Source of the DNA: Rubrivivax sp.
GTDB taxonomy: Bacteria > Pseudomonadota > Gammaproteobacteria > Burkholderiales > Burkholderiaceae_C
Length of the DNA: 64,000 nt
Direction of reading: 5' to 3'
NCBI GenBank assembly: GCA_030653505.1
Contig: JAURZK010000098.1
Location: 1-64,000 of the forward strand
Shown: piece after piece, positions 33,258-64,000 of the stretch
Numbering within the stretch: the stretch's first letter is position 1
How the letters are laid out: each line of letters starts with the position of its first letter
The notes under the pieces: generated by a model
Database searches by the model: none
What the model was told of the DNA's origin: nothing
The model's input: the letters and a program-made list of their open reading frames with translations, nothing else
Program-made: the position numbers and the translations under genes

Positions 33258-33334
33258 GCGGCTGTAGCTCAGCTGGATAGAGTACTTGGCTACGAACCAA
33301 GGGGTCGTGGGTTCGATTCCTGCCAGCCGCACCA
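33258..33334 (+). tRNA. tRNA-Arg (anticodon ACG)
   Basis: A 77-base tRNA. Acceptor arms GCGGCTG (33258-33264) and CAGCCGC (33324-33330) pair fully; discriminator A and an encoded CCA end at 33334. The anticodon stem is CTTGG/CCAAG with the loop CTACGAA, giving ACG. D stem GCTC/GAGT, T arm around TTCGATT. It marks the change from conserved chromosome to mosaic sequence, so it is a likely integration site. Confidence 0.97.
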
Positions 33335-34851: not shown

Positions 34852-35048
34852 GATGCGTCGTCATGGGCCGGTCCGTCGCGGAACTACATAGAGGAATGGC
34901 GCGCGCCCCGACATGGACTCATTGGGGATGGGTGATACTGATTGGCCGCCGCAGAGCGCGCTGCGCGCCATCCCTCCATCATGAGGATGATGCGTCAGGT
35001 CGGCTCATCGAATATGAAGAAGCGCGTCGCACCAATGTGGAGGACCGT

Positions 35049-36335: not shown

Positions 36336-36342
36336 GGGCGGC

Positions 36343-41779: not shown

Positions 41780-42006
41780 TGGAGGAAGCACGCGCACTTT
41801 CCCTGAGCCGGGCCGCCAACCACCGGCAAAGTACCAAAACGTTGAGGATGATTTAATACCATGAAGAAACACGCGCAATTCCCCGCCCATCGGTGTTCGA
41901 GTGGCGCATCTGCTTCCCTGTCGAATTCACAAGTGGCAGTGACGGAAGCAGGGTCGCGCGCGGTCGGGCTGCAGGACCGCACAACAACAAGACAGGAAGG
42001 GGCGAA

Positions 42007-42915: not shown

Positions 42916-43060
42916 GAGAATCATTGATTTCCTTGCCTTGGGTGGTGGGCACACGCGTTCCATCGCGTTGGACCGCGACCTTCACGACGACTCGGTCGTC
43001 AACAACTACCTGCTGACACCGGCCGCGATCAATGCTCTAAAACAGATCGGCACGGGTCTC
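42908..43060 (+). pseudogene. Decapitated partner gene of the DUF4007 protein (first about 45-50 codons only)
   Basis: Translation from ATG 42908 (SRRIIDFLALGGGHTRSIAL, then NYLLTPAAINALKQIGTGL) reads like the N-terminus of a large P-loop ATPase of the kind that sits after DUF4007 genes, where a Walker A would follow. Around 43035-43060 the frame instead enters sequence complementary to the end of traG and drifts on to 43225 without meaning. The gene was cut by the recombination that joined the two modules. The family call is inference; the truncation follows from the overlap with traG coding sequence. Confidence 0.6.
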
Positions 43061-45196: not shown

Positions 45197-45237
45197 GATG
45201 GACGCTCCTGGCTCTCGGCGGCGCCGTTAGCGGCCCA

Positions 45238-46677
45238 TTACCGGCGAAGATAGGCCGCCTGCTGGCCCAGCATGTCCATCACGTGTTGCGGCATGCTCGA
45301 GCGCAGTTGTCGTTCCAGTTCTTCCAAGTGGCTGGATACCGCGCGGAAGGAGCCCACCTTTTGGTACAGCAGGTTCTTCTCCTGCGAGATCTGCAGCAGC
45401 ATCGCCTGCGCGCGATCACGAATGCGGTTCGCCTGCTCGCGCTGGGTCTGCTGCAGTTGGTAGTTCTTGTCCAGCGCGGCCATGCCCAGCCGCAGGTTGC
45501 GCTCCAGGAACACGTAGGCATAGTCGGCGGCGATCACGTCGCGGTACTGACCGATCAGGCTGTCGGCGAGGCCCGAGCCGGGAATGGTCGAGCCGATCGA
45601 CAGCATCTTGTAGACCGGCTCGGTGGTCTGATTCACAAATCCCACCTCGGCCGAATTGTTCGGGATCGCGGTACGCAGGGCGATCTTGTCGGCGATCGAG
45701 CGCATCATGGTCTCGACCTTCGCGGTGAAGGGCGTGTGGGTGTAGGCGGTGTTCAGTGTCACCACGTCGCAGTTCGTGTAGTCGTTGCATTTCAACATGT
45801 GCTGGACGACGTCTGTCCCCGCCGCGGCGCTCTGCCCATACAGAAGCTGGCTGATCGAGGTGATGGTCGGTGCGATGGGTTCGGGATCGCGTGCCGCCTC
45901 GTCGGGGTAGTAGACGATGGTGCCCACCATGCTCATGATCAGTTCGCGTTCCTGGTCGTCCAGATAGGAGCCGGTGTACTGCAGTGCCTTCCAGGTGAGG
46001 TTGCCGACGAAGGGAGCCTTGTTCTTCACGTTCGGGTCGGTCGAGGATCGCGCAGACGCGAGGATGCCCGGCCGGTCCGTCGCGCAGCGCCGGCGTGCTG
46101 CATCGCGATCACTTTCCAGGCCCATCTCGACGGCCAGGTCGGCGCAGGTTTCCTGCGAGCTGTAGCCGGTCGCCTCGGCCGCGGTGCTGACGATGGCCTT
46201 GGCGGTTTCGCAGGAGTTGATGCGCGCGTTGTTGATCCAGGTCTCCAGCCCCTTGGCCCACTTGGTCAGCCCACCCAGCAGCGGCGAGACGGCTTCCAGC
46301 GCGAGTTGAAAGGCGATGCCCGGAAGCGCCGCCGTGATGTTCCTCAGCATGTTTTTGAACTCGGTCGCCGAGATGTGCGAGAACGAACCGCCGAACACGT
46401 CGATGCCGCCGCAGCCGGCCTTGGCGCTCGGGAACTGGATGGCAGCGAGCTGGTAGACCTTGTTCGGCGATCGCATGAACAGGCTGCCGCCGGTGTAGGT
46501 GTTGAAGGTCTGGCCGCGGAAGGCGCCTGGCGCGGTGTAGTTGCCGATGGCGCCCAGGTTGTTGAACATGTTGTTCACCTCTGCGTTCAGGTCGCCGGCC
46601 CGCAGCGGCAGCGGCGAGACTGCGAGCAACGCTGCAATCAAGACAGCGCAGGACTTCTTCATCGATTCGGGGACCAT
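45238..46677 (-). CDS. traH: TraH-like conjugation protein
   Basis: A 479-residue exported protein. A signal peptide (KKSCAVLIAALLAVSPLPLRAG) is followed by the TraH pattern: DLNAEVNNMFNNLGAIGNYTAPGAF, GGSLFMRSPNKVYQLAAIQFPS, AGCGGIDVFGGSFSHISA and FQLALEAVSPLLGGL. A coiled coil lies near the C-terminus (ALDKNYQLQQTQREQANRIRD, EKNLLYQKVGSFRAVSSHLEELERQL). TraH takes part in F-type pilus assembly in the periplasm. A TAGGAG motif supports the ATG at 46677. Confidence 0.92.
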   Translation of the reverse strand: MVPESMKKSCAVLIAALLAVSPLPLRAGDLNAEVNNMFNNLGAIGNYTAPGAFRGQTFNTYTGGSLFMRSPNKVYQLAAIQFPSAKAGCGGIDVFGGSFSHISATEFKNMLRNITAALPGIAFQLALEAVSPLLGGLTKWAKGLETWINNARINSCETAKAIVSTAAEATGYSSQETCADLAVEMGLESDRDAARRRCATDRPGILASARSSTDPNVKNKAPFVGNLTWKALQYTGSYLDDQERELIMSMVGTIVYYPDEAARDPEPIAPTITSISQLLYGQSAAAGTDVVQHMLKCNDYTNCDVVTLNTAYTHTPFTAKVETMMRSIADKIALRTAIPNNSAEVGFVNQTTEPVYKMLSIGSTIPGSGLADSLIGQYRDVIAADYAYVFLERNLRLGMAALDKNYQLQQTQREQANRIRDRAQAMLLQISQEKNLLYQKVGSFRAVSSHLEELERQLRSSMPQHVMDMLGQQAAYLRR

Positions 46678-46686
46678 GGAAGACTC

Positions 46687-47574
46687 CTACTGAAGGACGA
46701 CGTGCCGGCTGGTGCTCGGCAGCATCTCTTCGGCACTGGGTGCCGAGACGGTGGTGATGCGTTCGAGCAGTTCGGCTTCCGACAAGACGCCGAAGCCGAT
46801 CGGGGTGATCTTTCCGGTGAAGGGTTGGGCGAGGAAGACGGCGGGGACCTGGGTCACCTGCAAGGTGCGGGCGATACCGTTGTCGCTACGTGCATCGGGG
46901 AAGCCCGGCATGCTTCCGCCATCCACGCTGATGCCCACCACCTTGATGCCGTGGCGCTCCTGGAAGGCCGCGAGCGTCGGCGCGAAGGCATGGCAGTACG
47001 GGCAGTCGCCCCTGAAGAAAAAGAACAGCACGTGGTCCTGGCCCAGCGCGCCGATCGAGCTGGAGCGGTCGCTGATCTGCTGGCGCTCGAAGACCTCCAG
47101 CGCCTTGGCGTTGACCGGCCGGCCCTGCAGCGTCGGATCGAGCTCGGGTGTGGCCCAGGCCACCCGCTGCGCGACGTCGGCGAAGTACGAGGCGCGGGCC
47201 ACGACCTTGGCCTCGAGCTCCATGTAGCGCCGCACGTTCGCCTCGGTTGGCCGCATGATGGCGACGTTGCGATACTCCTCCAGCGTCTTCTGCAGGCGCT
47301 GGAACTGGACCAGTTCCGGTGGCTTGGGCGGTGGTGTTTTGGCGGATGGCGTGGCGGGCGGCGGGACGGGTCTGCGCGGCGACGCGGCGTCTTCGCCTTC
47401 CGGTTCGGGTTCCTCGTAAAAATGCCAGCCGCGCCAGGCATCGGCCCAGTAGGGCGAGGCCGCCGTAGCTTCCTGGCGACCACTGTCCTGGGCCGACGAT
47501 CCGGCAGGAAGCCATGACAGCGCCAATGTGGTCCAGACGGCAAAGCATGCGGATGAGAAGAGTGATCGCTGCAT
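46687..47574 (-). CDS. traF: TraF-like thioredoxin-fold conjugation protein
   Basis: A 295-residue periplasmic protein with a signal peptide, a proline-rich linker (about 70-90) and a C-terminal thioredoxin-like domain. The active-site motif is CPYC in FFFRGDCPYCHAFAPTLAAF, then VVGISVDGGSMPGFPDA and the cis-Pro in VTQVPAVFLAQP. F plasmid TraF lacks this CXXC pair, while TraF of related elements keeps it and works as a disulfide isomerase. It probably matures the cysteine-rich TraN and TraH. Nine-base gap to traH. Confidence 0.92.
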   Translation of the reverse strand: MQRSLFSSACFAVWTTLALSWLPAGSSAQDSGRQEATAASPYWADAWRGWHFYEEPEPEGEDAASPRRPVPPPATPSAKTPPPKPPELVQFQRLQKTLEEYRNVAIMRPTEANVRRYMELEAKVVARASYFADVAQRVAWATPELDPTLQGRPVNAKALEVFERQQISDRSSSIGALGQDHVLFFFFRGDCPYCHAFAPTLAAFQERHGIKVVGISVDGGSMPGFPDARSDNGIARTLQVTQVPAVFLAQPFTGKITPIGFGVLSEAELLERITTVSAPSAEEMLPSTSRHVVLQ

Positions 47575-47584
47575 GTCAGCCTCT

Positions 47585-47956
47585 TCAGGTCAGCGACTTC
47601 GGCGGCAGGCCGTCGAGGCAGTAGTTGATGCCGAACTCGATGGTCTGCTTGCGCGGCGCCTTCGCACCGGGCAGCAGCACACCGTCCTGCCAGAACGTCA
47701 CCTTCAGTCGGCTGCAGCCCGCCTGCACGTAGCGACGCTCGGTCGTCACGTCGATGAAGATCGGTGTGCTCGCCGCAAAGCGCTTGGAGATGGCATCGGC
47801 TACGTCGCCGGTCAACACACCGCGGGCCTGGCCATCGGTGGACTGGATCGCAGCCAGCAGCAGCGGGCGAGGATCTGTCACCGGCGTGCGTTCGGGGGCC
47901 TGGGCACTGCAGTCCAGGGCCGCGGCCAACAACAATATGAGAACGGTGGCTTTCAT
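47585..47956 (-). CDS. Small exported conjugation-region protein
   Basis: A 123-residue protein with a signal peptide (KATVLILLLAAALDCSAQA), possibly a lipoprotein through the Cys at residue 16. The body (TPIFIDVTTERRYVQAGCSRLKVTFWQDGVLL, IEFGINYCLDGLPP) has two cysteines that could form a disulfide. It sits between traN and traF, where such small genes occur in F-type systems. The start overlaps the traN stop (ATGA-type overlap at 47953-47956). Function unknown. Confidence 0.72.
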   Translation of the reverse strand: MKATVLILLLAAALDCSAQAPERTPVTDPRPLLLAAIQSTDGQARGVLTGDVADAISKRFAASTPIFIDVTTERRYVQAGCSRLKVTFWQDGVLLPGAKAPRKQTIEFGINYCLDGLPPKSLT

Positions 47957-48495
47957 TGGCAACGCCCTTGACCGTAGTAGCAATTCGGCACGCGCCCTGC
48001 GCTGCCGCTCTGCAGCGAACCGACGTTCGGCAACGTCGGCACGATGGACGCATAGAACTCGCTCAGGTCCATCGCCGCGAAGTTCAGGCTTTGCAGTTGC
48101 GCCACCGTGAAACCCGAGCAGTCTGGGCTCTCGGCGCTGCCCCAGCCCTTGGCGACCTGCATGCGGCCTTGCTCGTTGACGATGCGCGCGAGCTTGCTGT
48201 TGAAGCAGCACTTGCCGGTCGTGTGCTCGAGGCAGGACACGCACGAGCCAAAGAGGTTGATGCACGACGAGCAATAGGTGCCGATGCTGTGGCACAGACC
48301 CGCGCCTTCCTGCATCGCGAGCCGGCCTTCGTCTTCGTTGCAAGACATCATCGACATCACGATGTAGATGATGATGGCGATCACGAGCGACCAGGGGTCG
48401 AAGGCGATCACCAGGCTGTCTCCGGCATAGAGCACCGACGACCCGGCCGGCAGGGCGGTGCCGTTGACCGCGACGGTCACGCCGTAACTCGTGAA
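47953..48495 (-). pseudogene. traN: C-terminal fragment of traN, cut by the IS21 element
   Basis: The 175 or so visible residues are cysteine-rich (CHSIGTYCSSCINLFGSCVSC, LEHTTGKCCFNSKLARIVNEQG, GWGSAESPDCSGFT), matching the C-terminus of the F-type adhesin TraN. The frame stays open upstream into the left end of the IS (48496), so the N-terminal part was removed by the insertion or by associated deletion; it is not found on the far side of the IS. TraN is an outer-membrane protein that stabilises mating pairs, so this fragment should be non-functional. Confidence 0.85.
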
Positions 48496-48499
48496 TGTT

Positions 48500-48523
48500 A
48501 ATTTCCACGTAATCCTGACCCAC
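48500..48523 (+). repeat. IS21 left-end motif
   Basis: AATTTCCA, an eight-base variable centre, then CTGACCCAC; the right-end copy at 50967-50990 is its near-perfect inverse. A second, looser copy (TTTCCATCC to TGACCCACC) follows at about 48526-48547. These are transposase binding sites in the family. Confidence 0.8.
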
Positions 48524-48568
48524 CGTTTCCATCCAATGTTGACCCACCCGTGTTCGAGCCCCGCGGGC

Positions 48569-49366
48569 TCACGTTGTGGATAACTTCTTGGTCTTGGACT
48601 CCTTCTTGGGCTGGGTTGGTTGCGCTGAGCTGTTCTTGAAGCGGTAGCTGTCGTTGCCGGTTTCCAGGATGTGGCAATGATGCGTGAGTCGATCCAGCAA
48701 CGCCGTTGTCATCTTCGCATCGCCGAACACGCTGGCCCACTCGCTGAAGCTCAGGTTGGTCGTGATCACCACGCTGGTCCGCTCGTAGAGCTTGGACAGC
48801 AGATGGAACAGCAGTGCGCCTCCTGACGCGCTGAACGGCAGGTAGCCCAGCTCATCGAGGATCACCATGTCGGCGTACATCAACCGGTGCGCGATCTGCC
48901 CGGCCTTGCCCGTGGCCTTCTCGAGCTCCAGCGCATTCACGAGCTCGACCGTAGAGAAGAACCTCACGCGCCGATGATGATGCTCGACCGCCTGGACCCC
49001 GAGCGCAGTGGCCAGGTGCGTCTTGCCCGTGCCCGGCCCGCCGACGAGCACCACGTTCTGCGCATCCTCCAGGAACTCGCATCGGTGCAGCTGACGCACC
49101 AGGGCTTCGTTGACCTCGCTCTGCCCGAAGTCGAAGCCTGCGAGGTCGCGGTAGACGGGCAAGCGCGCCAGCTTCAGCTGGTAGGCCACCGAGCGCACCT
49201 CACGCTCGGCCGTCTCTGCCTTGAGCAGCTGCGACAGCACCGGCTGCGCTGCCTCGAAGGCCGGTGCGCCTTGTTCGGCCAGCTCCGCCACCGCGTGCGC
49301 CATGCCGTGCATCTTGAGCTCGCGCAGCATGATCACGATGGCTGCGATCGCAGGGTCATGACGCAT
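48569..49366 (-). CDS. istB: IS21 helper ATPase IstB
   Basis: A 265-residue AAA+ ATPase. Walker A is in [18 protein letters not shown], Walker B in [15 protein letters not shown], and [36 protein letters not shown] is the sensor and arginine-finger region. IstB loads and remodels DNA for IstA during transposition. The start overlaps the end of istA. The C-terminus is lysine- and serine-rich. Confidence 0.96.
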
Positions 49367-50921
49367 GGCAGTTCTCCTTGGCCGCGCAGGCGTGCACCGC
49401 GGCCTGGGCCTTGCCCCGCAACGCGTCGTAGCGCAGCACGTTGGCCTGTGGCTCGTTGACCAGGCGCAGTGCCTGCGGCGCGGTCACCGGCGGTGCGGGC
49501 GGCTTGCCGTCGAGCAACCGGTGCAGCACGTTGAGCACATGCGTCTTGGTTGGCACGCCGGCCTCCAGCGCCAACTCCACCGCGGTGAGCACGGCCTGCT
49601 CGTCGTGGTGCAGCACCAGCGCCAGGATCTCTACCATCTCCCGGTCGCCGCCAGGTTGCCTGAGCAACGAGCCTTGCAGGCGCCGGAAGCCTTCAGGCAG
49701 CTCGACGAACGGTGCGCCGTTCCTGAGTGCGCCGGGCTTGCGCTGCAGCACCGCCAGGTAGTGGCGCCAGTCGTAGACGGTCTGGCCGCTCGTGTCGTGG
49801 CGCCGGTCGATGATGCGAACGTGCTCGCACACGATCTGGCCCTCGGCCGCGACCACGAGCCGGTCGGCATAGACCCGCAGGCTCACCGGTCGGTTCGCAT
49901 ACGACGCCGGCACGCTATAGCGGTTGCGCTCGAAGTGCACGAGGCAGGTCGGCGAGACACGCTTGGTGTGCTCGACGAAGCCGTCGAAGGATCGAGGCCG
50001 CGGCATCAGGAAGGCCCGCTCTTGCGCCCACGCGTCGGCGACGGTGCCGGGCAGCTTGCCGTGGCTGATCTCGGCCCACAGCGCCTTGCAGCGCAGCTCG
50101 AGCCAGTCGTTCAATGTCTGCAGCGTCGGGAACACAGGCGTCGGTTGCCACAGCCTGTGCCGCGAGTCGCGTACGTTCTTCTCGACCTGGCCCTTCTCCC
50201 ACCCGGAGGCCGGGTTGCAGAACTCGGCCTCGAACAGGTAGTGGCTGACCATGGCCTGGAAGCGTGCGTTGATGTCGCGCTCCTTGCCGCGTCGGACCTT
50301 GTCGACGGCGGTGCGCATGTTGTCGTAGATGCCGCGGCGCGGGACGCCGCCCAGCACCTCGAAGGCGTGGTTGTGGGCGTCGAACAGCATCTCGTGGGTC
50401 TGCAGCGGGTAGGCCCGCAGCAGGAACGCACGGCTGTGGCTGAGCTTGAAGTGCGCGACCTGCAGCTTGGTGCGCTCGCCGGCAATGACGGCCCAGTCCT
50501 CGCTCCAGTCGAACTGGAACGCTTCGCCGGCACCGAAGGTCAGGGGCACGAAGGTGCCTCGGCCGGTGGTCTGCTCGGCCTCGTGGCGCTGCGCGGTCCA
50601 CTCACGGGCGAAGGCCGCGACGCGGTTGTAGGAACCGGCGTAGCCGAGCACGACGAGGTCGGCGTGCATCTGCTTCAACGTTCGCCGCTGCTTGCGCGAC
50701 CTGGTGGCCTCCGCCTTGAGCCAGCCCGAGAGCTTGTCGGCGAACGCGTCCAGCTTGCTCGGGCTGATCCGCTTGGCAAACCGCGGCTCGGCAGCGCCGG
50801 CTCGAAGGTACTTCCTGATGGTGTTGCGAGACAGGCCGGTGCGCCGGGCTATCTCTCGGATGGACAGTTGCTCGCGCAGTGCCCAACGCCTGATGACACT
50901 CAATGTCGCCACGTCAATCAC
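49356..50921 (-). CDS. istA: IS21 transposase IstA
   Basis: A 521-residue DDE transposase. An N-terminal HTH ([22 protein letters not shown]) is followed by the RNase H-like core: the first Asp in [12 protein letters not shown], the second in [15 protein letters not shown], and the Glu in [16 protein letters not shown]. The C-terminal part holds [19 protein letters not shown]. Starts at GTG 50921. It overlaps istB by 11 bases; the complete, uninterrupted frames suggest a recent insertion. Confidence 0.95.
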
Positions 50922-54068: not shown

Positions 54069-54863
54069 TCACGCCGCTACAAAGAGGCCGGGAACCAATC
54101 GGTCATTGAGTTGTACATGCGTATGGCTGCACAGCGCTCCGAGAGTCACCGCTCCATCCATTCGATGTGTGTCGTAGTGGCAAACGATCGTCACCTCCGG
54201 GTGACGGGTGAGCAACTTGTTGAGAAGGGCCTCATATTCGATCATCCGCTCGGTGCCTGGCGTTCCCTTCAGGTACCAACTCATCTCGCCGGAGATCAGC
54301 ACCTTCTCGTGGCCGGACGCGCGAAATGCCAGGATGGCCGCTTCCATGAAGTCGACCATGCGGTCAGGGACGAAAGTGCCGGCGCGCAAGTACCCGTCGG
54401 ACGGTTCGAGCAGTCGAAGCAGACCCGCATTGCACAGCTCTTCGGGGTCGTGCCCTTCCGAGCGGATCCGGGACATGACTGCGTCGCGCCCGTTCTCCTC
54501 ATGGATGTAGAGGATCGGTGCTCGTTGGCGCAACTGCTCGAGAACATACGGCCGAAAGAGTCGCCACAGATCGTCCGCGTCGCTGTAGTGCAGACATACG
54601 TGCCGCGGGACTCCTCGTGAGGCAGCTTCGGCGAGCACCGCCACTGGGTCAGTCGATCCTGCTGGCGCGTCAGGGGGCGCGACGCTGACATCGTCCCTGC
54701 TCACACAGGCATCGAGATCCTTCTGGAGGAATCGCCGCTCACCCTTCACGCCGATGCGTGAACAGCGGAGTGTGCCCGCCTTGGTCCATCGGCGCAGTGT
54801 CGTCTTGCTGATGTTCAAGTATTGGGCCGCCTCCTCGATTGTGAACAACCGATCCTTCTCCAA
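54069..54863 (-). CDS. DcmR-like regulator: HTH plus MEDS sensory domain
   Basis: A 264-residue regulator. Residues 6-55 form an excisionase/MerR-type HTH (LFTIEEAAQYLNISKTTLRRW, KAGTLRCSRIGVKGERRFLQ). Residues about 85-260 form a MEDS domain (MEthanogen/methylotroph, DcmR Sensory), with HVCLHYSDADDLWRLFRPYVLEQL, PILYIHEENGRDAVMSRI, LISGEMSWYLKGTPGTERMIEYEALLNKLL and VTIVCHYDTHRMDG. MEDS resembles KaiC-like P-loop folds without clear nucleotide motifs. DcmR represses dichloromethane dehalogenase in methylotrophs. Here it is divergent from the coenzyme M locus and is the likely controller. Confidence 0.88.
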   Translation of the reverse strand: MEKDRLFTIEEAAQYLNISKTTLRRWTKAGTLRCSRIGVKGERRFLQKDLDACVSRDDVSVAPPDAPAGSTDPVAVLAEAASRGVPRHVCLHYSDADDLWRLFRPYVLEQLRQRAPILYIHEENGRDAVMSRIRSEGHDPEELCNAGLLRLLEPSDGYLRAGTFVPDRMVDFMEAAILAFRASGHEKVLISGEMSWYLKGTPGTERMIEYEALLNKLLTRHPEVTIVCHYDTHRMDGAVTLGALCSHTHVQLNDRLVPGLFVAA

Positions 54864-55248: not shown

Positions 55249-55473
55249 ATGTCTGCCCATTCGACCGTCGAGCTGGTCCGGAGTCGCTACCAGTTGAGCT
55301 TTCTCTCGCTCTTCCGCGGCACTGGGTTCGCCTTTCCGTGTGATGAGGCCGGGCGAGTCGATCTGGATGCAATGAGCGACAAGCAACGGAACGCCTATCT
55401 GTACGCGAGGGCGCTCATTGGGTGGGAACTGGCATATCCCGTGGTGCAGCCCGCGCATGAGTGTTTACGATAG
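55249..55473 (+). CDS. Small protein at the head of the coenzyme M locus
   Basis: A 74-residue product with a strong AAGGAGG seven bases before its ATG. The sequence (SAHSTVELVRSRYQLSFLSL, CDEAGRVDLDAMSDKQRNAYLYARALIGWELAYPVV) looks like small proteins found on plasmids and integrative elements, so it may be a leftover of the island and not part of the pathway. Its good initiation signal and position next to the transferase keep a role open. Confidence 0.7.
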   Translation: MSAHSTVELVRSRYQLSFLSLFRGTGFAFPCDEAGRVDLDAMSDKQRNAYLYARALIGWELAYPVVQPAHECLR

Positions 55474-55616
55474 TACTGTATGGATAGGTTAGACATAGCA
55501 TGAACATGCATTGCACTGGAAGTGTGGTGCTTCTCGACAAAACGCTACATAACTTCTTTTCACCATTCCAATCCAAACGCGCCCATGCAGTGGCGACGTA
55601 CTTAGGAGTTCACCAA
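55474..55616 (+). promoter_or_regulatory. Leader and promoter region of the CoM transferase gene
   Basis: An AT-rich 143-base stretch. It contains the GGATA-type box TATGGATA (55479-55486) and the perfect palindrome GCATG-AA-CATGC (55498-55509), both suitable as operator sites. TAGGAG lies nine bases before the ATG at 55617. Confidence 0.55.
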
Positions 55617-56744
55617 ATGCAGATCGGAAGCCAGAACGTACTGATCCCCACCAGCATGGTGGGAAATTATCCAAACCCGCGCTGGTGGGACTCCCAGTTC
55701 GCGCGTCACTTCACCGGTGACATGCAGCCGCCGGACTCGATGTGGCAAGAGGCGCTTGAGGATGTCATCGGGGCGATGGCTCGAGACCAAGAGCAAGCTG
55801 GGTTGGACATCATTTCGGACGGTCGTGTCCAGGGCGACAACTACGCTGACGTGGCGGTCTACCACTACCTCCATCGTCTGGGCTACGACCTCAAAGGTGG
55901 TCACCTCGGGTTTCCGATCTACAGCCGCCTGCACTCGGGCACCGCGACCAAGGAGATCAAGCGGTACGGCGCGCTGATGGTCGAGCAGGCCAAGGCGCTG
56001 CGCAAGGCAACCAAGAAGCCGATCAAGGTCCAGTACACGGGCGTGCAGGTGCTGGCGCAGTGCACCAACGACCTGTTCTACAAGTCCAGTCGCGAGCGCG
56101 CGATGGCCATCGCTGCTGCGATCAACGAGGATCTCAAGGAAGTCGAGGCCATCGGCGCCGACTTCATCCAGCTTGACGAATTCACCTGGCCGTACTTCTT
56201 CGAGGACTATGCGATCGAGGCGTTCAATCGTGCGGTCGAGGGAATCAAAAAGGCGAAGATCATCGTCCACGTGTGTTGGGGCAATTGGGGCGGCACGCCC
56301 GCGTACATGCCCGACACAACCGCCAAGTCAGGTGAAGTGTTCGACCTCACGAAGCGAGTGGGCCAGGCGCCGTCGGCCACAGCGTCCATCATCCCGAAGG
56401 CGTACCAGGCGAACATCAGCGTCCTGAACCTCGAGAGCTGTGGGCGCCGTGCGGACGACCTGTCGGGTCTGGACATCATGAAGCAGCATCCGCTGCCGCC
56501 CAACGTGGACTTCTGGGCCGGCGTGATCGACGTGAAGAGCACGATCACGGAGACGGCCGAAGAAGTGGCGTCGCGGATCCGCCGGCTGCTGGAGTACGTG
56601 CCCGCCGACCGCCTCGGTGTGACGACCGACTGCGGGCTGATCCTGCTGCAACGCTACATCGCCATCGACAAGATTCACGCGCTGGTCGAAGGAACCAAGA
56701 TCGTGCGTGCCGAGCTGGCTGAACAGCAGAAGAAAGCCGCCTGA
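55617..56744 (+). CDS. xecA: Epoxyalkane:coenzyme M transferase homologue
   Basis: A 375-residue MetE-fold zinc enzyme, close to the 377 residues of XecA from Xanthobacter. It would attack an epoxide with the CoM thiol to give a hydroxyalkyl-CoM. Zinc ligands of the His-X-Cys-Xn-Cys type are visible: His218 and Cys220 in IIVHVCWGNWGG and Cys339 in LGVTTDCGLILL. Other MetE-like marks are TSMVGNYPNPRWW and FIQLDEFTWPYF. The ATG at 55617 is chosen for its TAGGAG; a 39-codon upstream extension has no such signal and no homology expected. The CoM-synthesis genes downstream strongly support the assignment over methionine synthase. Confidence 0.9.
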   Translation: MQIGSQNVLIPTSMVGNYPNPRWWDSQFARHFTGDMQPPDSMWQEALEDVIGAMARDQEQAGLDIISDGRVQGDNYADVAVYHYLHRLGYDLKGGHLGFPIYSRLHSGTATKEIKRYGALMVEQAKALRKATKKPIKVQYTGVQVLAQCTNDLFYKSSRERAMAIAAAINEDLKEVEAIGADFIQLDEFTWPYFFEDYAIEAFNRAVEGIKKAKIIVHVCWGNWGGTPAYMPDTTAKSGEVFDLTKRVGQAPSATASIIPKAYQANISVLNLESCGRRADDLSGLDIMKQHPLPPNVDFWAGVIDVKSTITETAEEVASRIRRLLEYVPADRLGVTTDCGLILLQRYIAIDKIHALVEGTKIVRAELAEQQKKAA

Positions 56745-56810
56745 CGGTCCACGGAAGGCGCCCGACGCCTTCCATTTCATTCCTGAGCACACCGACTGAA
56801 GGAGGGCCGG

Positions 56811-57035
56811 ATGCCTGTCTACGCCTTGGCTTGCCCGAATTGCGGACACGAGTATTGCGGCATGGTGCTCGAAGGGACGCGTCCCCCTCCGGTCTGGGAG
56901 TGTTCCGAGTGTGGGAGTGACCAGGTTGTGCTCAAGCCAGGCGCTCCGGTCCTGGCGCATCCGTGGGAGCAACGGGATTACCACAGCGCCTGTCTGTGTT
57001 GCGCACCGAAGGCGAAGTCAGGCTTAAGCATGTGA
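56811..57035 (+). CDS. Zinc-ribbon (FmdB-like) small protein
   Basis: A 74-residue protein with GAAGGAGGG before its ATG. CPNC (residues 9-12) and CSEC (about 31-34) form a four-cysteine zinc ribbon of the FmdB/rubredoxin-like type, and a third pair (CLCC, about 62-65) may bind a second metal or be redox-active. FmdB-type proteins occur next to C1 and amide-degradation genes with unknown roles. It lies between the transferase and the SDR, so it is likely cotranscribed. It could be a metal or regulatory accessory; function unknown. Confidence 0.8.
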   Translation: MPVYALACPNCGHEYCGMVLEGTRPPPVWECSECGSDQVVLKPGAPVLAHPWEQRDYHSACLCCAPKAKSGLSM

Positions 57036-57224
57036 TGAACAGCAGCGCAAAGCACCGGAGGGTTCCGTCGATGGCAGGCGTCAATCGAGGACGTGGTCGC
57101 ACTGAACGCTCCCGCTGCCGATTCGGCGGCGCATCACTTCATTCATTGGGTGCGCTCGTCGCGGTGTTAGTCGCGCCGAGTGAGCGTTCCTGAATTTTCG
57201 AATTACCTACCGAAGGAGAGAGAG

Positions 57225-57992
57225 ATGGCAGGACTCATGGTTGGGCGGACGGTGGTCATCACCGGCGGCGGCGCGGGCATCGGGCTGACGACCGCGCGCA
57301 GGTTGATTCAGGAGGGTGCGGCAGTGGCACTGCTCGACCTGGACGGAGCGGTCGCTGCGCACGCGGCCGAAGAGTTGCGCAAGGAGGGCGGTAAGGCCTT
57401 TGGCGTGGCGGCCGATGTCACTGATGCGCAAAGCCTGGATCGCGCTGTGGCCGCGGCCGCCGATGCGCTCGGGACCATCGACGGGTTGTTCAACAACGCG
57501 GGCATTGCTGGATTCGGTACCGTCCACGAGAGCACTCTCGAGAGCTGGCAGCGCATCTGGGACGTGAACGTGACGGGCACGTTCCTCGCATCGCGCGCCG
57601 TGCTGCCGCAGATGATCGCCAAAAGACGTGGCGCAATCGTCAATGTGGGCTCGGTGGCAGGCATGGTCGGCATTCCGGGCATGGCGGCCTACTGCGCAGC
57701 CAAGGGTGCCATCGTCAATCTGACGCGTCAGATGGCGATCGACTATTCGAAGCTGGGCGTGAGAGTCAACTGCGTCTCCCCCGGAACGATCGCGGAAACG
57801 GCGATGGGCAAGTCGCTGCTGGGAAATGACACCAGCGAAGAAGCCATGAATAGGCGGCTCTCTAAGTATCCGCTTGGCCGCTTCGGCAAGCCGGTGGAGA
57901 TCGCCGAAGCAGTGGTTTTCCTCCTCTCCGATGCGGCCAGCTTTTGCGTCGGATCGAACTTGGCAGTCGATGGCGGGATGACGGCGGCATGA
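57225..57992 (+). CDS. SDR dehydrogenase, hydroxypropyl-CoM dehydrogenase-like
   Basis: A 255-residue short-chain dehydrogenase. The cofactor loop is TGGGAGIG (13-20), the acidic end of beta-2 (LLDLDG) indicates NAD over NADP, NNAG is at 90-93, and the catalytic residues are Asn115, Ser143, Tyr156 and Lys160. From memory, S-hydroxypropyl-CoM dehydrogenase binds the CoM sulfonate with Arg211 and Lys214; this protein has Arg211 and Lys214 in [13 protein letters not shown]. Position 152 is Gly, unlike the R-specific enzyme. It would oxidise hydroxyalkyl-CoM to the oxo form. GAAGGAG precedes the ATG; the stop overlaps the next start (ATGA). Confidence 0.85.
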
Positions 57993-58933
57993 TTGCGGTC
58001 TTCGCCCAGCGCGACAAGCGGGCGAGCCTGGCCGAGCTCGCAGCGCACGTAAACGACGGCGACTGGGTCGCAGTCGGAGGCGGGCTTTCGTCGCGCGAGC
58101 CCATGGCCCTGCTGCGTGAGCTCATCCGCGCCGGCCGCCGCGGCCTGAAGGTCGTGGGGTCGGCGCACGGCATCGACATCGATCTGCTGTGTGGAGCGGG
58201 CGCCGTCGCGCGGTCGGCGGAGAGCTACGTCGGCTTTGAACAAGACTTCGGCATGGCGCCCAACTATCGGCGCGCCTGCGAATCGGGAGCGGTCGAGGTC
58301 GACGACAGTTGCTGCTATACGGTGGTGCAACAGTTGCGCGCTGCTGCCTACGGCTTGCCCTTTCTGCCGGTCCGATCCGTCAGGGGAACGAGCTTCGAGA
58401 ACATGCACTCGGAGTACAAGCGCATCACCTGCCCTTTCACCGGGGAGGAACTGATCCTGGTTCCCGCTTTGCAGCCGGACATCGCGCTGATTCACGCCCA
58501 GTACGGCGACGCGCATGGGAACCTGCGCATCGAGGGGCCACCGGTCGCCGACATTCTCGCGGCACGCGCCTCCAAGAAAGTCGTCGCGACCGTCGAGCGC
58601 ATCGTCTCGAACGACGAGTTGCGTTCGCTCGGCGGAGCGAACGTGCCTTACTTCTATGTCGCAGCGATCGCCGAGGTTCCGTTCGGCGCGCACCCCACTG
58701 CGTGCTACCCGATGTACGCCTACGACCGCCCTCACACTGCGGCCTACTACGCTGCAGCTAGCGCCGGGCCGCAGGAGTTCGAGTCGAACTACCTGGGGCC
58801 GTTCGTTCACGGGTGTCCGGATCACCACGACTACCTGGAGCGCATTGGGGGCAGCGCGCTTCGATCGCGTCTCGGCTCATGGGGCGAAGGCACAGAGTCT
58901 TGGATGAACCTCTACCGCGAGGAGTCCGCATGA
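57989..58933 (+). CDS. CoA-transferase-family subunit A (GctA/IpdA-like)
   Basis: A 314-residue alpha subunit of the family I CoA-transferase fold. Recognisable: [73 protein letters not shown] and [14 protein letters not shown], all matching glutaconate CoA-transferase A and IpdA. ATGA overlaps on both sides tie it to the SDR and to subunit B. In the ethene and vinyl chloride clusters of actinobacteria a CoA-transferase pair also sits near the CoM transferase. The acyl substrate is unknown. Confidence 0.88.
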
Positions 58934-59775
58934 ATAAGACTTGCAGTGTTGGCGAGGTGATGATCTTCAATCTCGCGCGCACCGTCGGGAATGGCGATCT
59001 CGTCTTTCATGGTTTCGGGTCGCCCCTGGTTCAACTGGCGCTTCATCTTGCCAAGCGCACACATGCACCGGATCTCGTCTTCGTGGCCGGCGCAACCTAT
59101 GGGCTGAACCCGGAACTTTCCTTCCTTACACCGACGTCAAACGACTGGGCCCTTGACCGCGGCGCCGAGTGCGCCATCGACATCGAGGAACTCTTCGATC
59201 TGGCAGCCTCGGGCCGAATGAGCCGGATGTTCCTTTCCGGCCTGCAGATCGATCCTTGGGGCAACGCCAACGTGACGCGACTTGGCGAAGACCGCCTGCG
59301 CCTGAAGCTTCCGGGCGGCGGCGGCGGCTGCAACTTGTCCTGCGATGCGGGCAACTTCACCCTGTGGACACCGGCCCATCGCGGCCCCGTCGGCAAGGAC
59401 GGCAAGCGGATGCTTCGCCTGGTTGCGCAGTGCGATTTCGTCACGACACTCGGGCACAGGGCAGTCGACGGGCGCTCCCGCCGTGAACTCGGCCACCGTG
59501 GCGCGGGACCCGATACGCTTCTTACCGAGCTCGGCCTGTTTGACTTCGATAGTGAAGGTCATGCACGGCTCAGAGCCGTCTTCCCGGACACGGAACTCCA
59601 GGAGATCAAAGCCAACACGGGATTCCCTCTAAGGCTCGCCGAGCGCCTAGAGCCCATTCCGCTGCCCGATGCGGAAAGTGTCGCGTTGATCCGCAGGCTC
59701 GACCCACTCGGCGTCCACCGCAAGGAACTGCGGCCGGCCGACCTCGAGCGTCAATTCTCGGTGTCGTCGCACTGA
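58930..59775 (+). CDS. CoA-transferase-family subunit B lacking the catalytic glutamate (GctB/IpdB-like)
   Basis: A 281-residue beta subunit. It aligns by eye with glutaconate CoA-transferase B: APDLVFVAGATYGLNP corresponds to the segment that holds VESG there, so the catalytic Glu54 is replaced by Ala53. SGLQIDPWGNANVTRLGED and a glycine run (PGGGGGCN, about 134-141) correspond to the later conserved region. IpdB-type relatives, which lack this Glu, work as CoA-thioester ring-cleaving hydrolases. The pair may therefore do hydrolysis or C-C cleavage and not CoA transfer. It overlaps subunit A by four bases. Confidence 0.87.
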   Translation: MNKTCSVGEVMIFNLARTVGNGDLVFHGFGSPLVQLALHLAKRTHAPDLVFVAGATYGLNPELSFLTPTSNDWALDRGAECAIDIEELFDLAASGRMSRMFLSGLQIDPWGNANVTRLGEDRLRLKLPGGGGGCNLSCDAGNFTLWTPAHRGPVGKDGKRMLRLVAQCDFVTTLGHRAVDGRSRRELGHRGAGPDTLLTELGLFDFDSEGHARLRAVFPDTELQEIKANTGFPLRLAERLEPIPLPDAESVALIRRLDPLGVHRKELRPADLERQFSVSSH

Positions 59776-59789
59776 TCGCGGAGTCGCAG

Positions 59790-60707
59790 ATGCCTACTTC
59801 CGCCTTGGCCTTGCATCACAAACGCAATATGGTGCCGCTGCCCTACAGGCAGGTCAGTGTGCAGCCGTACGCCGGGCCCATGACGGAAGCAGCCCTGTTC
59901 GACCATCTGCTCGGCCGCGAGGCCTACCGGCGGACGAACTTCATTGTTCTGCACCGCGGCGACGTCGCGAGCAGTGACGTCGCAGTGGTTGCGATTGCAC
60001 GGGAGGATGACGAGCGCTTGTTCTCGCCGATCACCGATGTCGAGGTCCTGGCGCTGCCCGACACGTGCGTGTTCGCGAAAGACCCCTCCACGGATTGCGC
60101 CAACCGATCGGCGCTGGCATCGCTCGCCCACCATCGCGGCGTTGGATCGGATCGCACGCTCGTCGTGTGGGGAAAGTACGACCACATCAACTTCATCCAC
60201 CATCCCGACCCGGTCGTGCTGCGCATCGTCGAGGTCGCGCCGCCCGAGCCGGCCAAGCTGTTCGACCTCGTCCAGCACGTGCTCAGCTATGCCGACCTCC
60301 CCGCGATTCGGGTCGAACTCGAGCGCATCGACATCGTCGATCTTGCGCGTCGGCATGTCGCCAAAGAGTATCTGGTGCCGTGTAGATCGGGGGGACTCGA
60401 TTCGCTGGACGCGCCGGTGAGCTATCTCGATGAGCGCCCCCCGCAGCGACGCGACTGGGTGCTCGTCGGTTGTGAACGAAGCCTGCAGTTCCATCGGCAC
60501 TACTACGGCGATGAGCCGCCGCGAGTCGAAATGTGTCCGAGGCGCATTGCGGGTTCGCGCGACGAATTGACGATGGTCAAGTGCTGCCTGCTCGAGTTCG
60601 AAATCGAGCGCGACGGACAGGTCATGACGGTGCCCTGGGGGACCGACCTCGCGATGGTCGAGCGCGCCCTGGGACAACTGACGAGGGAGCCAGGCGATGC
60701 TCGATAG
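59790..60707 (+). CDS. Unrecognised protein of the coenzyme M locus
   Basis: A 305-residue soluble protein with no family I can name. Visible features: YAGPMTEAALFDHLLGREAYRRT at the start, VVVAIAREDDERLFSPITDVEVLALPD, a His-rich stretch KYDHINFIHHPDPVVLRIVEV, EMCPRRIAGSRDE and MVKCCLLEFEIERDGQ. His and Cys clusters suggest metal binding. GGAG precedes the ATG at 59790. Its end overlaps the start of the phosphosulfolactate synthase gene by 11 bases, so it is tightly coupled to CoM synthesis. Possible roles are a missing CoM biosynthetic step or a CoM-conjugate enzyme. Confidence 0.85.
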   Translation: MPTSALALHHKRNMVPLPYRQVSVQPYAGPMTEAALFDHLLGREAYRRTNFIVLHRGDVASSDVAVVAIAREDDERLFSPITDVEVLALPDTCVFAKDPSTDCANRSALASLAHHRGVGSDRTLVVWGKYDHINFIHHPDPVVLRIVEVAPPEPAKLFDLVQHVLSYADLPAIRVELERIDIVDLARRHVAKEYLVPCRSGGLDSLDAPVSYLDERPPQRRDWVLVGCERSLQFHRHYYGDEPPRVEMCPRRIAGSRDELTMVKCCLLEFEIERDGQVMTVPWGTDLAMVERALGQLTREPGDAR

Positions 60708-61641
60708 TCACTGGCGCCATCTCGCGGCCATAGGCGAACTGCGCCAGCAACGCAGCGTTGCGCCGCGCGCTTGCGGGCCAACGATGGTGATCGATACAGG
60801 GCTTGGGGCCGCGGCGACAGACGACATCCTGGAAGTGGCCGGTGAGTACATCGACATCTGGAAGCTGAGCTTCGGCACTTCGGTCTTCGTGCGCCCCGCC
60901 GTTCTCGAGCGGAAGCTCGAACTATTGAAGGCTCGAAAGGTACTGTCCTGCCCCGGCGGGACGCTTTTCGAAGCGGCTGTCTTGCAGCATCCCTGTCGCT
61001 CCTTCATGAAGCATGCAGCCGACATCGGATTCGATGCCGTTGAGATATCCGACGGCACCATCGACTTGTCGGCATTTCGTCGCAGGCACGCGATCGATTG
61101 CGCGCTCGAGGCCGGGCTCATCGTAATCACCGAGGTCGGCAAAAAAGATCCGACGATGCAGCCACCGATCGCCGAATTGGCTCGGCAGGCCCAACGAGAT
61201 CTCGATTGGGGGGCCCGCTGGGTCATCGTCGAAGGTCGCGAGTCGGGCGTTGGTGTCGGCATATTCGACGCGTGCGGCAATGTTGCAGTTGGAGACGTCG
61301 AAACCTTCGCGGGCATTCTCGACGGCCGCCAGGATCGTGTCATTTGGGAGGCCCCGCGCAAACATCAGCAGGCCGCACTGATCGCGCGCTTCGGTGTCAA
61401 TGTCGGGCTCGGCAACATCGCGCCCGAAGGAGTGTTGGCACTGGAGGCCCTGCGCCTCGGCCTGCGATACGAGACCCTCAAACCGATTGCCGATGCGTTG
61501 AGGATGTCGGGACGATGCGCGTCTGACCAGATCGAGGCGGTCCTGATCGGTGACGCGATTGATGGACGTGCGAGCCTGTCGCGTTCGCTGCGAACGTTTG
61601 CGGCCGCCTCCGCGAGGAGTACCGCGAATGGTACGTTCTGA
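60697..61641 (+). CDS. comA: Phosphosulfolactate synthase (ComA/XcbB1-type)
   Basis: A 314-residue TIM-barrel protein that joins sulfite and phosphoenolpyruvate to (R)-phosphosulfolactate, the first step of CoM synthesis. Family marks: [56 protein letters not shown] and [16 protein letters not shown]. The archaeal enzyme is about 250 residues; this one has a longer N-terminus. The stop overlaps the next gene's start by 14 bases. It is the strongest evidence that the cell makes its own CoM. Confidence 0.93.
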
Positions 61642-63166
61642 GCACCACGGCGTCACGGCTCCCGACGCCGAGAGGCTGCGGGCGCTAGAGGTCGGTGGCC
61701 GGCTCGCCGACGCGCCCGGTGCCGCACTGGTGGCGTTTGCGTTCGCGGAAGAACTACGCCACCAAGCGGTGCTCGCCGAGGCCATCGGGCTTGTCGACCT
61801 TGCGTATGTATTGGCGCTCGTCGAGGAACGGAAGATCCCGCGCCGTGAGGGTTACGAACTGCTAGCGGCGCTGCTGGATCTTCACGAGCTTCCGCAGGCG
61901 CTGGTGCTAGACCCTCAGCTCGGCGACCTGTACACGAACCGTGAGCACTGGCTGGGTACCCGAACAACCTCAGTGGGCTGGTTGGGCACCGGGCGGGCGA
62001 GACGGGAAGCAACCACATCGGCCTTCCACCTTGTGGTTTGCGAGCGTCTGCTGCTGCTGTCAAATGCGCTGGTCGACTTGGGTCTCGAGGTCTTGGCTTG
62101 CGCACATGCGCAGCGCGACGTCCTGGTCGCCGACTACACGTATCTGCAGGCCGGGCAGCCGACCACCTTCGGCCACTACTTGCTCGGTTTCGTTGGACCC
62201 ATTCTGCGCGACATCGAGCGCATTCAGTCCTTTCACGCGAGATTTAACCTGAGTCCGGCAGGCTGCGGGAGCACCAATGGATCGCGTCTAGCGCCGGACC
62301 GGGCGCGCGTCGCGGCGCTGCTCGCCTTTGACGGCATCGTGACCCACACGCGCGATGCGATGTGGCAGGCCGATGGTCCGATCGAAGGCATGGCCCTGGT
62401 CGTGGCGACGCTGGTCAACATGGATCGGCTGAGCGAGGACTTGATGGTCCTGGCCACTGTCGAATTCAGTGTCGTCACGCTGGACGACGGCCAGTCCAGG
62501 GCCAGCAAGATCATGCCGCAGAAGAAGAATCCATTCGCCCTGGCGTACATCCGCGCGGCGGCCAATCAGGCGATCGGTCTGCAAGCCTCGTTGGCAGCGT
62601 CGGGGCGCACCCCAACCGGCCAGATGGACAACCGCCTGCTCGCGTACGGCGAACTGCCCAGAGCCCTCGAACTGGCCGCCGGCGCCGCCGGACTGATGCG
62701 CGCGACGCTCGCAGGCCTCACCGTGTCGCGGGCGAACGCGGCCCGCACGCTGGATCGCAGCTTCGCTCTCGCCACCGATCTGGCCGAAGCGCTGGTGCGC
62801 CGCGCTGATCTTGACTATCGCTGTGCGCACCGCGTGGTTGGCCGGCTGGCGCGCATGCTGCACGACACGAACAGGGCGCCGGCGTCGCTGAAGCCCGCCG
62901 ATGTCGCGGCGGCTGCCGAATCGATTCTGGGTCGGCCGGTCGCGATTGGCGAGGCCGATCTCGCTCGCGCACTCGATGCACGCGTGGCCATCGAAGCGCG
63001 CCACTGCGTCGGAGCGGGGTCTGAGGCCTCGATGGCGAGCATGTTCGAGGATTACGCCGCGAAATTCTCCCGGGCCGCTGCTTGGACGAAGGCCACGACG
63101 GAGGGGGCGAACCATGCGCGGATAGGCCTCGTCGCCGCGGTTCGGCACCTGCTCGCGGAGGCGTGA
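61628..63166 (+). CDS. xcbC1: Aspartase/fumarase-superfamily enzyme of CoM synthesis (XcbC1-like)
   Basis: A 512-residue argininosuccinate-lyase-like protein. The superfamily signature is [16 protein letters not shown], about residues 290-305; the His-bearing region is [20 protein letters not shown]. In the bacterial CoM pathway of Xanthobacter, XcbC1 of this superfamily removes phosphate from phosphosulfolactate to give sulfoacrylate. True argH is elsewhere in this window (20920), which favours the special role here. ATG at 61628 overlaps comA; the stop overlaps the next start (TGATG). The assignment to XcbC1 over XcbD1 is by gene order. Confidence 0.82.
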
Positions 63167-64000
63167 TGGCTGCCGCGACGATGATTGACTCGGTGGTGTT
63201 CGGTGGGCTGTGGAGCCACCGGGCGATCAAGGCGCTGTTCGAGGAGGACCGGCGCACGCTTGCTTGGCTCGAGATCATCGCCGTCCTTGCCGAGGTCCAG
63301 GCCGAGTTCGAGCTGATTCCATCGTCTGCCGCAAGGGCCATCGCGACGTCTTGCCGAGCGATCGAGGTGGGTGCCGGATTTCTGGAGGAGGTCCGTCAGG
63401 GGCGCGAGGCGAGCGGCCATTCGATGCAAGGCTTGATCCGTGCGGTCCAGGCGCGACTGACGCCTGGAGACGCCCAATGGGTCTACGCCGGCGCCACGGT
63501 ACAGGACGTCACGGACACCTGGCTGATGATGGCGCTGCGCGATGCACACCGGATGCTGGAAGAGGATCTTCGACGCGTCTTGAAGTCCCTGGCCACACTC
63601 GCGCGACAGTACCGTGACACGCCGATGGCCGGGCGCACGCACGGCCAGCAGGGCCTGCCTATCACCTTCGGCTTCAAGGTGGCAGTTTGGCTGGCCGAGG
63701 CGCAGCGCCACCATCAGCGACTGACCGAGATCACCTCACGGATGGGTATTGCGCAGCTCGCCGGCGGTGTGGGTAGCGTGTCCTCCCTGGGTGGGCGTGG
63801 ACTCGAAGTGCAGCGCCGATTTGCGGAGCGGCTGGGCTTGACGGCGCCTCGTGTGTCCTGGACCTCCAGTCGTGATGTGCTGGCCGAGTGGTGCGGTCTG
63901 CTCGCGATGATCAGCGCGACCGCAGATCGCATCGGGCATGAGGTCTACAACCTCCAGCGCAGCGAGATCGCTGAAGTGCGCGAGGGTCTCGTCGACGGCA
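63166..64000 (+). CDS. xcbD1: Second aspartase/fumarase-superfamily enzyme of CoM synthesis (XcbD1-like), cut by window end
   Basis: The first 278 residues are visible. The start [20 protein letters not shown] is followed by TLAWLEIIAVLAEVQAEFELIP and the superfamily conserved region DTPMAGRTHGQQGLPITFGFKVAVW, typical of adenylosuccinate lyase and carboxymuconate cycloisomerase relatives. WVYAGATVQDVTDTWLMMAL holds the first active-site segment. The signature loop would lie beyond 64,000. It starts inside the TGATG overlap with the preceding gene. In Xanthobacter the next gene (xcbE1) encodes a PLP enzyme; it would be expected just past the end. Confidence 0.8.
   Translation, partial: MAAATMIDSVVFGGLWSHRAIKALFEEDRRTLAWLEIIAVLAEVQAEFELIPSSAARAIATSCRAIEVGAGFLEEVRQGREASGHSMQGLIRAVQARLTPGDAQWVYAGATVQDVTDTWLMMALRDAHRMLEEDLRRVLKSLATLARQYRDTPMAGRTHGQQGLPITFGFKVAVWLAEAQRHHQRLTEITSRMGIAQLAGGVGSVSSLGGRGLEVQRRFAERLGLTAPRVSWTSSRDVLAEWCGLLAMISATADRIGHEVYNLQRSEIAEVREGLVDG

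Follow-up and report, generated by a model that had tools for sequence, protein, structure and literature searches.

Clusters of genes for the breakdown of short epoxides by way of coenzyme M (CoM) are known from Xanthobacter autotrophicus Py2 (the xec and xcb genes), from the ethene- and vinyl chloride-related loci of Nocardioides JS614 and Mycolicibacterium NBB4, and from Methylohalobius crimeensis. CoM is made from phosphoenolpyruvate and sulfite by the Xcb enzymes. In the Mycolicibacterium vinyl chloride cluster a CoA-transferase-fold pair, an acyl-CoA synthetase, a CoA-disulfide-reductase-like (CoADR-like) flavoprotein, xcb genes and SsuABC occur together (PMC8727900); in Methylohalobius 11 of 13 cluster proteins rise after ethylene, and the top match for most of the cluster genes is a metagenome-assembled genome, HGW-Betaproteobacteria-11 (PMC11507031). 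The locus described here lies in a stretch of DNA assigned to Rubrivivax sp.: the window, bases 1–64,000 of the 75,517-base contig C170 (JAURZK010000098.1), the remainder of which was also read. The last part of the window and the bases that follow very probably hold a laterally acquired operon that serves to break down short epoxides by way of CoM and also encodes the synthesis of this CoM. Since such clusters have been published in Methylohalobius and Mycolicibacterium the locus belongs to a known kind, of which it appears to be a further, probably betaproteobacterial and island-borne example.

The first gene of the operon (55617..56744, + strand) encodes a protein that is, by its sequence, an epoxyalkane:CoM transferase (EaCoMT; XecA/EtnE). 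Among the best 40 of 265 records it is 77.3% identical to the 2-hydroxypropyl-CoM lyase of Py2, 50.8% identical to the JS614 enzyme and 47.5% to that of NBB4, against no more than 31.9% for methionine synthases; a gap of this size rules out a methionine synthase. The zinc site (His218-X-Cys220…Cys339) is invariant in all three aligned EaCoMTs. An earlier note on this DNA had recognized here a MetE-fold transferase with a His-X-Cys-Xn-Cys zinc site; the other genes it named are likewise present where it had placed them and free of internal stops.

The next enzyme gene (57225..57992, +) encodes a short-chain dehydrogenase/reductase (SDR) of the S-type, a putative 2-hydroxyalkyl-CoM dehydrogenase. 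Its best PDB match is 4gh5 (3.7e-87), which we take to be S-HPCDH. The protein is 62% identical to the S-type enzyme of Py2 compared with 39% for the R-type, and it clusters with the former, apart from the latter, in a tree built from 100 SDR hits and two Py2 references (all trees are FastTree trees, midpoint-rooted and without support values). The R152/R196 pair of R-HPCDH, whose roles in that enzyme we assume, is absent. From the SDR gene to xcbD the genes follow one another with overlaps of 4, 4, 11, 14 and 4 bases and one 14-base gap (some start codons were chosen by us): the overlaps of 4–14 bases reported for most junctions are found at five of six.

The genes for CoM synthesis form the second half of this run. 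They encode XcbA (DUF7714; 59790..60707, +; NF052538, 462.5 bits against a cut-off of 150; also PF24830), the phosphosulfolactate synthase ComA/XcbB (60697..61641, +; TIGR03849, 299.6 against 280), XcbC of the aspartase/fumarase superfamily (61628..63166, +, the start codon being our choice; NF052535, 619.1 against 575 when scanned from 61670), XcbD (63163..64000, +, continuing to contig base 64524; NF052536) and, past the window, XcbE (contig 64521–65531). Profile scans (Pfam and NCBIfam) covered 18 different proteins, encoded by the locus, by its regulator gene and by the part of the contig past the window, XcbD being scanned both cut and whole: the part in the window scores 374 bits, the whole gene 616.5 against a cut-off of 600. 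XcbA, XcbB, XcbC, XcbD and XcbE each exceed their NCBIfam cut-offs and all lie in one operon; the predicted CoM synthesis set is complete on the contig. The impression of a complete locus, with a phosphosulfolactate synthase and two aspartase/fumarase-superfamily enzymes, is borne out by TIGR03849, NF052535 and NF052536, and xcbE was found past base 64,000, where it had been suggested to look. The model of XcbA is confident (mean pLDDT 94.2), but a fold search of the PDB gave nothing that reached E 0.001; therefore no mechanism is drawn from the fold. Cys198, Cys228, Cys249, Cys265 and Cys266 of this protein are invariant, and His235 and His237 nearly so; they could form a metal site.

Beyond xcbE the contig continues with genes (start codons partly chosen by us) for an ADP-forming acyl-CoA synthetase (contig 65528–67585; profile scan), an acylating aldehyde dehydrogenase whose best NCBIfam match is SauS (67588–69027), a CoADR-like flavoprotein (69126–70514; profile scan), a sulfonate-type, SsuABCC-like ABC transporter (70532–74027, or L002:10532–14027; profile scan) and a product that is presumably ZIP-like (74065–74802). 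The contig ends within a gene for 2-ketopropyl-CoM carboxylase (2-KPCC; XecC), the N-terminal part of which (∼220 residues; 74860–75517) aligns with 1mo9 at 9e-97, contains the redox pair Cys82/Cys87 and the HNACVPHH segment, and is 65–68% identical to XecC of Py2. XecC had been reported absent, and a different downstream route deduced. The absence holds for the window alone: the N-terminal part of the gene lies on the same contig, ∼11 kb past the window, and the deduction therefore falls. Among the loci fetched for comparison (L-numbers; L006 is the 41-kb Py2 locus, L019 that of HGW-Betaproteobacteria-11) its nearest relatives are L017, L018 and L019 (82–86%), whose 2-KPCCs keep Phe501 and His506. 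Because an R-type SDR adjoins 2-KPCC in these closest relatives, one probably also follows past the end of the contig.

In the pathway proposed here, the first steps are supported by close homology: XcbB–XcbE together with XcbA would make CoM, with which EaCoMT would open the epoxide; the S-type SDR would oxidize the hydroxyalkyl-CoM, and 2-KPCC would carry out the reductive cleavage of oxoalkyl-CoM and the addition of CO2. The propene-derived epoxide would give acetoacetate, to be activated by the acyl-CoA synthetase; epoxyethane would give malonate semialdehyde, which the SauS-like dehydrogenase may convert to malonyl-CoA; this semialdehyde corresponds to sulfoacetaldehyde with a carboxylate in place of the sulfonate. 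Decarboxylation of malonyl-CoA to acetyl-CoA could then fall to the CoA-transferase-fold pair encoded between the SDR and XcbA. As the source of the epoxide itself we envisage either co-oxidation or a monooxygenase whose gene fell into a gap of the assembly. Use of epoxides, as the earlier note had supposed, is backed by EaCoMT (77% to Py2), the S-type SDR and the N-terminal part of 2-KPCC.

Several points weigh against this reading. A search of the genome for the C-terminal part of 2-KPCC, which would hold Phe501 and His506, did not recover it: the other ten matches are distant (24–34% identity). No match to SDIMO (PF02332) or AMO/pMMO (PF02461) was found on the contig or in the genome (4.56 Mb in 200 contigs; completeness 93.24%, contamination 4.59%); in controls, PF02332 was found on both of two plasmids and PF02461 in the methanotroph genome of L066. 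The substrate is not readable from the sequence, and the malonate branch, including the malonyl-CoA decarboxylase role of the pair, consists of steps that we infer. The aldehyde dehydrogenase scores 506.5 bits against NF047625 (SauS), under the cut-off of 600. Finally, subunit A of the pair is nearer to glutaconate CoA-transferase (1poi_A, 1.1e-40) than to AibA (5mzw_A, 3.5e-36).

The lack of an SDIMO or AMO/pMMO match raises the possibility that the operon serves detoxification only, in a host without an alkene monooxygenase that receives epoxides from co-oxidation or from its neighbors, as proposed for methanotrophs. The genome of L017, with an XecA 90% identical to that of the window, likewise contains no PF02332 or PF02461 match. 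Against this, the 2-KPCC gene is cut by the contig end, past which more genes of the operon may follow, and among 10 related genomes PF02332 has matches in five (PF02461 in three); one of the five belongs to L018, whose XecA is the nearest to that of the window (91%). The L018 protein is just 28% identical to the alkene monooxygenase alpha chain of Py2; L102 and L103 encode proteins 45–47% identical to it. Detoxification alone is possible, though less likely than not.

The role of the SauS-like dehydrogenase may also be read differently. In the text of PMC11507031 the enzyme is assigned to CoM synthesis (the handling of sulfoacetaldehyde), and SauS is indeed its best NCBIfam match. The score below the SauS cut-off argues against such a role, as does the presence in the same operon of XcbA, described in that paper as a functional analogue of the dehydrogenase; furthermore, the Py2 locus has no match to the dehydrogenase at E 1e-15, although it does hold a gene annotated as an aldehyde dehydrogenase (Xaut_4863). 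We consider a function in CoM synthesis rather doubtful, and retain malonate semialdehyde as the candidate substrate. In keeping with the epoxide pathway, the closest copies of the dehydrogenase (66–68%) are on three NBB4/JS614 plasmids, and an EaCoMT gene is present on two of these; the next best match is ∼45% identical.

The CoA-transferase-fold pair consists of two subunits. Subunit A (57989..58933, +) matches PF01144 (CoA_trans). Subunit B (58930..59775, +) gave no family match at E 0.001 in either Pfam or NCBIfam; its best solved-structure match by sequence is AibB (5n00_B, 1.7e-30), and its predicted fold is closest to the AibA/AibB decarboxylase (TM 0.88 on the target), AibB filling ranks 1–10 of the PDB fold search and glutaconate CoA-transferase rank 11. 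The model has a mean pLDDT of 87.2, with an average of 83 in the block of residue 53 and values below 50 at residues 124–132. The 'CoA-transferase-like pair' of the earlier note is therefore correct as to fold (PF01144 and the PDB matches), but the catalytic Glu that defines the beta subunit of Family I CoA-transferases is replaced in subunit B by Ala53. Nor does the site carry the Cys56 of AibA/AibB: Ala or a loop neighbor stands there. The position of the Glu rests on a statement in PMC7756340, on E. coli AtoA and on the spacing of the loop. In AtoA, as in the actinobacterial proteins, this spacing is 8 from Glu to Pro. With MAFFT, two settings out of three align the AtoA Glu on the Ala of the window; the loop is misaligned by the remaining setting and by hhalign. 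Our call of Ala53 relied on the equal spacing and on a loop free of Glu and Cys, not on hhalign.

The replacement is not peculiar to this locus. Of 60 subunit B sequences (homologues kept at 35% identity and 70% coverage, that of the window included) 27 carry Ala at residue 53 and 33 carry Glu. The Ala sequences form one clade and are by title betaproteobacterial (seven, counting the window), gammaproteobacterial (17) or alphaproteobacterial (three); in all 27 the active loop contains neither Glu nor Cys. The Glu sequences comprise 26 labeled actinobacterial, two Chloroflexota and five without a taxon label (labels were assigned by hand from record titles, 'actino' being the default). Ala is thus present in 27 of 28 sequences with proteobacterial titles; the exception, L033, is one of the five unlabeled, is titled Pseudomonadota, keeps Glu and has a gene set of the actinobacterial type.

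Substitution of the Glu is known to matter: CtfB E46A and E46S are inactive as CoA-transferases (PMC12400318), whereas AibAB C56A keeps its decarboxylation and Cys56Glu leaves 13% (PMC7756340). Because Glu to Ala kills CtfB while AibAB decarboxylates with Ala at Cys56, the pair in Proteobacteria most likely does not act as a transferase. For ethene and vinyl chloride clusters the published assignment is that of a CoA-transferase acting late in the route to malonyl- or acetyl-CoA (PMC8727900, PMC6440738), which would here charge malonate or acetoacetate. The affinity of subunit A to glutaconate CoA-transferase and the Glu kept in the actinobacterial copies are in keeping with this assignment; Ala in the window and in all but one of the 27 other homologues with proteobacterial titles, the loop of the 27 Ala sequences and the inactive CtfB variants make a true transferase unlikely. 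That actinobacterial copies keep Glu among the same neighbors counts against a single function shared by all pairs. The 3-methylglutaconyl-CoA decarboxylase AibA/AibB of Myxococcus xanthus is comparable in that it provides the closest solved structure to subunit B and has itself replaced the transferase Glu. It differs in carrying Cys56 where the window has Ala, in a loop one residue shorter, in belonging to another pathway, and in its AibA, to which glutaconate CoA-transferase is preferred as the relative of subunit A.

A second replacement concerns the carboxylase. Among 42 2-KPCC homologues (kept at 45% identity and 85% coverage; the cut copy at the end of the present contig was left out) Cys82, Cys87 and Phe501 never vary, but residue 506 does: 29 of the homologues have His and 13 have Tyr. 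The Tyr loci (L021, L027, L028, L038, L041, L053–L056, L058, L060, L066 and L068) are all titled as methanotrophs; 11 are gammaproteobacterial and two are Methylocystis, the two groups lying apart in the tree. In the stretches fetched, an R-type SDR was seen for 25 of the 29 His loci and for none of the 13 Tyr loci. Two loci run counter to a simple methanotroph rule by combining His506 with an R-type SDR: L026, whose genome has four AMO/pMMO-type matches, and L030, titled USCa, which we take to be a methanotroph group.

Taken together, these patterns permit a tentative reading, which we hold to be less likely than not. The proteobacterial pair would be a novel decarboxylase akin to AibA/AibB, acting after 2-KPCC (2-oxoethyl-CoM to malonate semialdehyde) and the SauS-like enzyme (to malonyl-CoA) to yield acetyl-CoA; and the change of His506 to Tyr in methanotrophs, apparently made twice independently and accompanied by absence of the R-dehydrogenase, would mark enzymes adapted to the C2 substrate, which is achiral. 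No mention of either the Glu-to-Ala or the His506-to-Tyr change was found in the literature searched, which left out most subscription journals. The route by which ethene-derived epoxide carbon passes from 2-oxoethyl-CoM to acetyl-CoA is proposed, not demonstrated, in the literature compared. Ala in 27 of 28 proteobacterial-titled clusters speaks against a textbook transferase mechanism, and the alternative is sufficiently defined to be testable with two proteins. The split at residue 506, together with the R-dehydrogenase, is a candidate sequence rule for telling C2-only from C3-capable loci in metagenomes, and so for reading the turnover of ethene, propene and vinyl chloride.

Two small features complete the front of the operon. 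Divergent to xecA is a gene for a regulator with a helix-turn-helix (PF12728, HTH_17) and a MEDS domain (PF14417, 132 bits) at 54069..54863 (−); relatives of it are divergent to xecA in Py2 (L006), L018, L024, L026 and L043. Between xecA and the SDR gene no remnant of xecC was seen: the gap holds a 74-codon open reading frame (ORF; 56811..57035, +), presumably zinc-ribbon-like, with translated similarity to L069, L006, L018 and L017. Its Py2 counterpart, Xaut_4866, lies between xecA and xecC. Neither of these two genes, nor xcbA, is named in the earlier note.

The operon appears to be carried by an island. A tRNA-Arg gene (ACG; 33258..33334, +; ARAGORN) is its probable left border: in 2-kb steps GC content is 0.68–0.75 ahead of this gene and 0.59–0.67 behind it. 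The border is a matter of inference, because no direct repeat of at least 25 bases was found in 33200–64000. Between the tRNA and the operon are an AlpA-like regulator gene and genes for F-type conjugation (TraG, TraH, TraF and the 3′ part of TraN; 43037..48480, −; PRK13735, PRK13723, TIGR02740 and PRK12355), of which TIGR02740 (TraF-like) alone passes its NCBIfam cut-off. The TraN fragment covers profile positions 621–795 of 795 and adjoins two ORFs (48569..50921, −) that are presumably an IS21-type istB/istA pair. Since TraN is down to its last 175 codons beside this pair, the conjugation region is probably broken (47953–50921). The drop in GC behind the tRNA and the conjugation genes ahead of the operon agree with the island setting first proposed, and lateral acquisition of the operon is part of our reading. 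At the start of the island (34863–38907) are genes for a DUF900 alpha/beta hydrolase and a CHAT-domain protein, and at 39684–42915 AbiEii-type, AbiJ-N-domain and DUF4007 genes, possibly defence genes of the island.

The betaproteobacterial label of the stretch could be tested only weakly. No 16S rRNA gene was found in the assembled genome. In a plasmid collection the best matches of TraG are from Janthinobacterium (56.5%) and Piscinibacter, and that of a PEP carboxylase gene of the high-GC part is from Cupriavidus (57.6%); they agree with a probable betaproteobacterial origin of the host, without proving it.

When GTDB genomes were scanned with three aligned EaCoMTs, a relative proved to be encoded in 100 stretches (E 1e-3); the 80 best of these were retained. 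Their EaCoMTs are 47–91% identical to that of the window, and their titles span Beta-, Alpha- and Gammaproteobacteria, Actinomycetota and Chloroflexota, with many methanotrophs. The view that such loci are rare and known mostly from other lineages is not supported: seven of the 80 have betaproteobacterial titles, and a betaproteobacterial metagenome-assembled genome had already been named (PMC11507031). Within the order of the window, one of 399 sampled genomes has a match at E 1e-80, namely the window's own. At more than 100 bits, and within the bounds set by 10-kb flanks and contig ends, subunits A and B are each seen in 59 of the 80 loci, ComA in 56, XcbA in 54, XcbD in 50, XcbC in 45, 2-KPCC in 43, the synthetase in 38, XcbE in 34 and the aldehyde dehydrogenase in 29. 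Rhodoferax, Rhodocyclaceae, methanotroph and actinobacterial loci have largely the same gene set as the window. The SsuABCC-like transporter lies inside the cluster here; within the same bounds SsuA and SsuB are in none of the 80.

Comparison with the described clusters bears out the likeness first noted to the Xanthobacter and actinobacterial genes. The etnE cluster of Methylohalobius shares EtnE, the SDR, the CoA-transferase-fold pair, ComA, homologues of XcbC–XcbE, the acyl-CoA synthetase, the SauS-like aldehyde dehydrogenase, CoADR-like and E3-type flavoproteins, a MEDS regulator and a location on a mobile island (PMC11507031); an alkene monooxygenase was found neither there nor in the assembled genome examined here. 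Compared by text, its list of 13 lacks the sulfonate-type transporter, the ZIP-like gene and XcbA of the window's contig (PMC11507031). The 2-KPCC fragment at the end of this contig is nearest to His506 relatives, residue 506 itself lying off the contig.

The xec/xcb genes of Py2 (pXAUT01, CP000782) correspond in XecA (77%), the S-type SDR (62%), 2-KPCC (65–68% over the N-terminal part), XcbA–E, the small zinc-ribbon-like ORF and the divergent regulator. The 41-kb locus differs in having no match to the CoA-transferase-fold pair, the synthetase or the SauS-like dehydrogenase, and in the monooxygenase alongside; further copies occur in Py2 in at least three clusters (PMC11507031). The ethene and vinyl chloride clusters of JS614 and NBB4 share EtnE, the pair, the synthetase, the SauS-like dehydrogenase, CoADR, the Xcb genes and the MEDS gene, and in Mycolicibacterium SsuABC is near the CoM genes (PMC8727900). 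They differ in an EtnE that is 47–51% identical to the protein of the window, in a pair that keeps the catalytic Glu, and in the alkene monooxygenase located next to etnE in NBB4.

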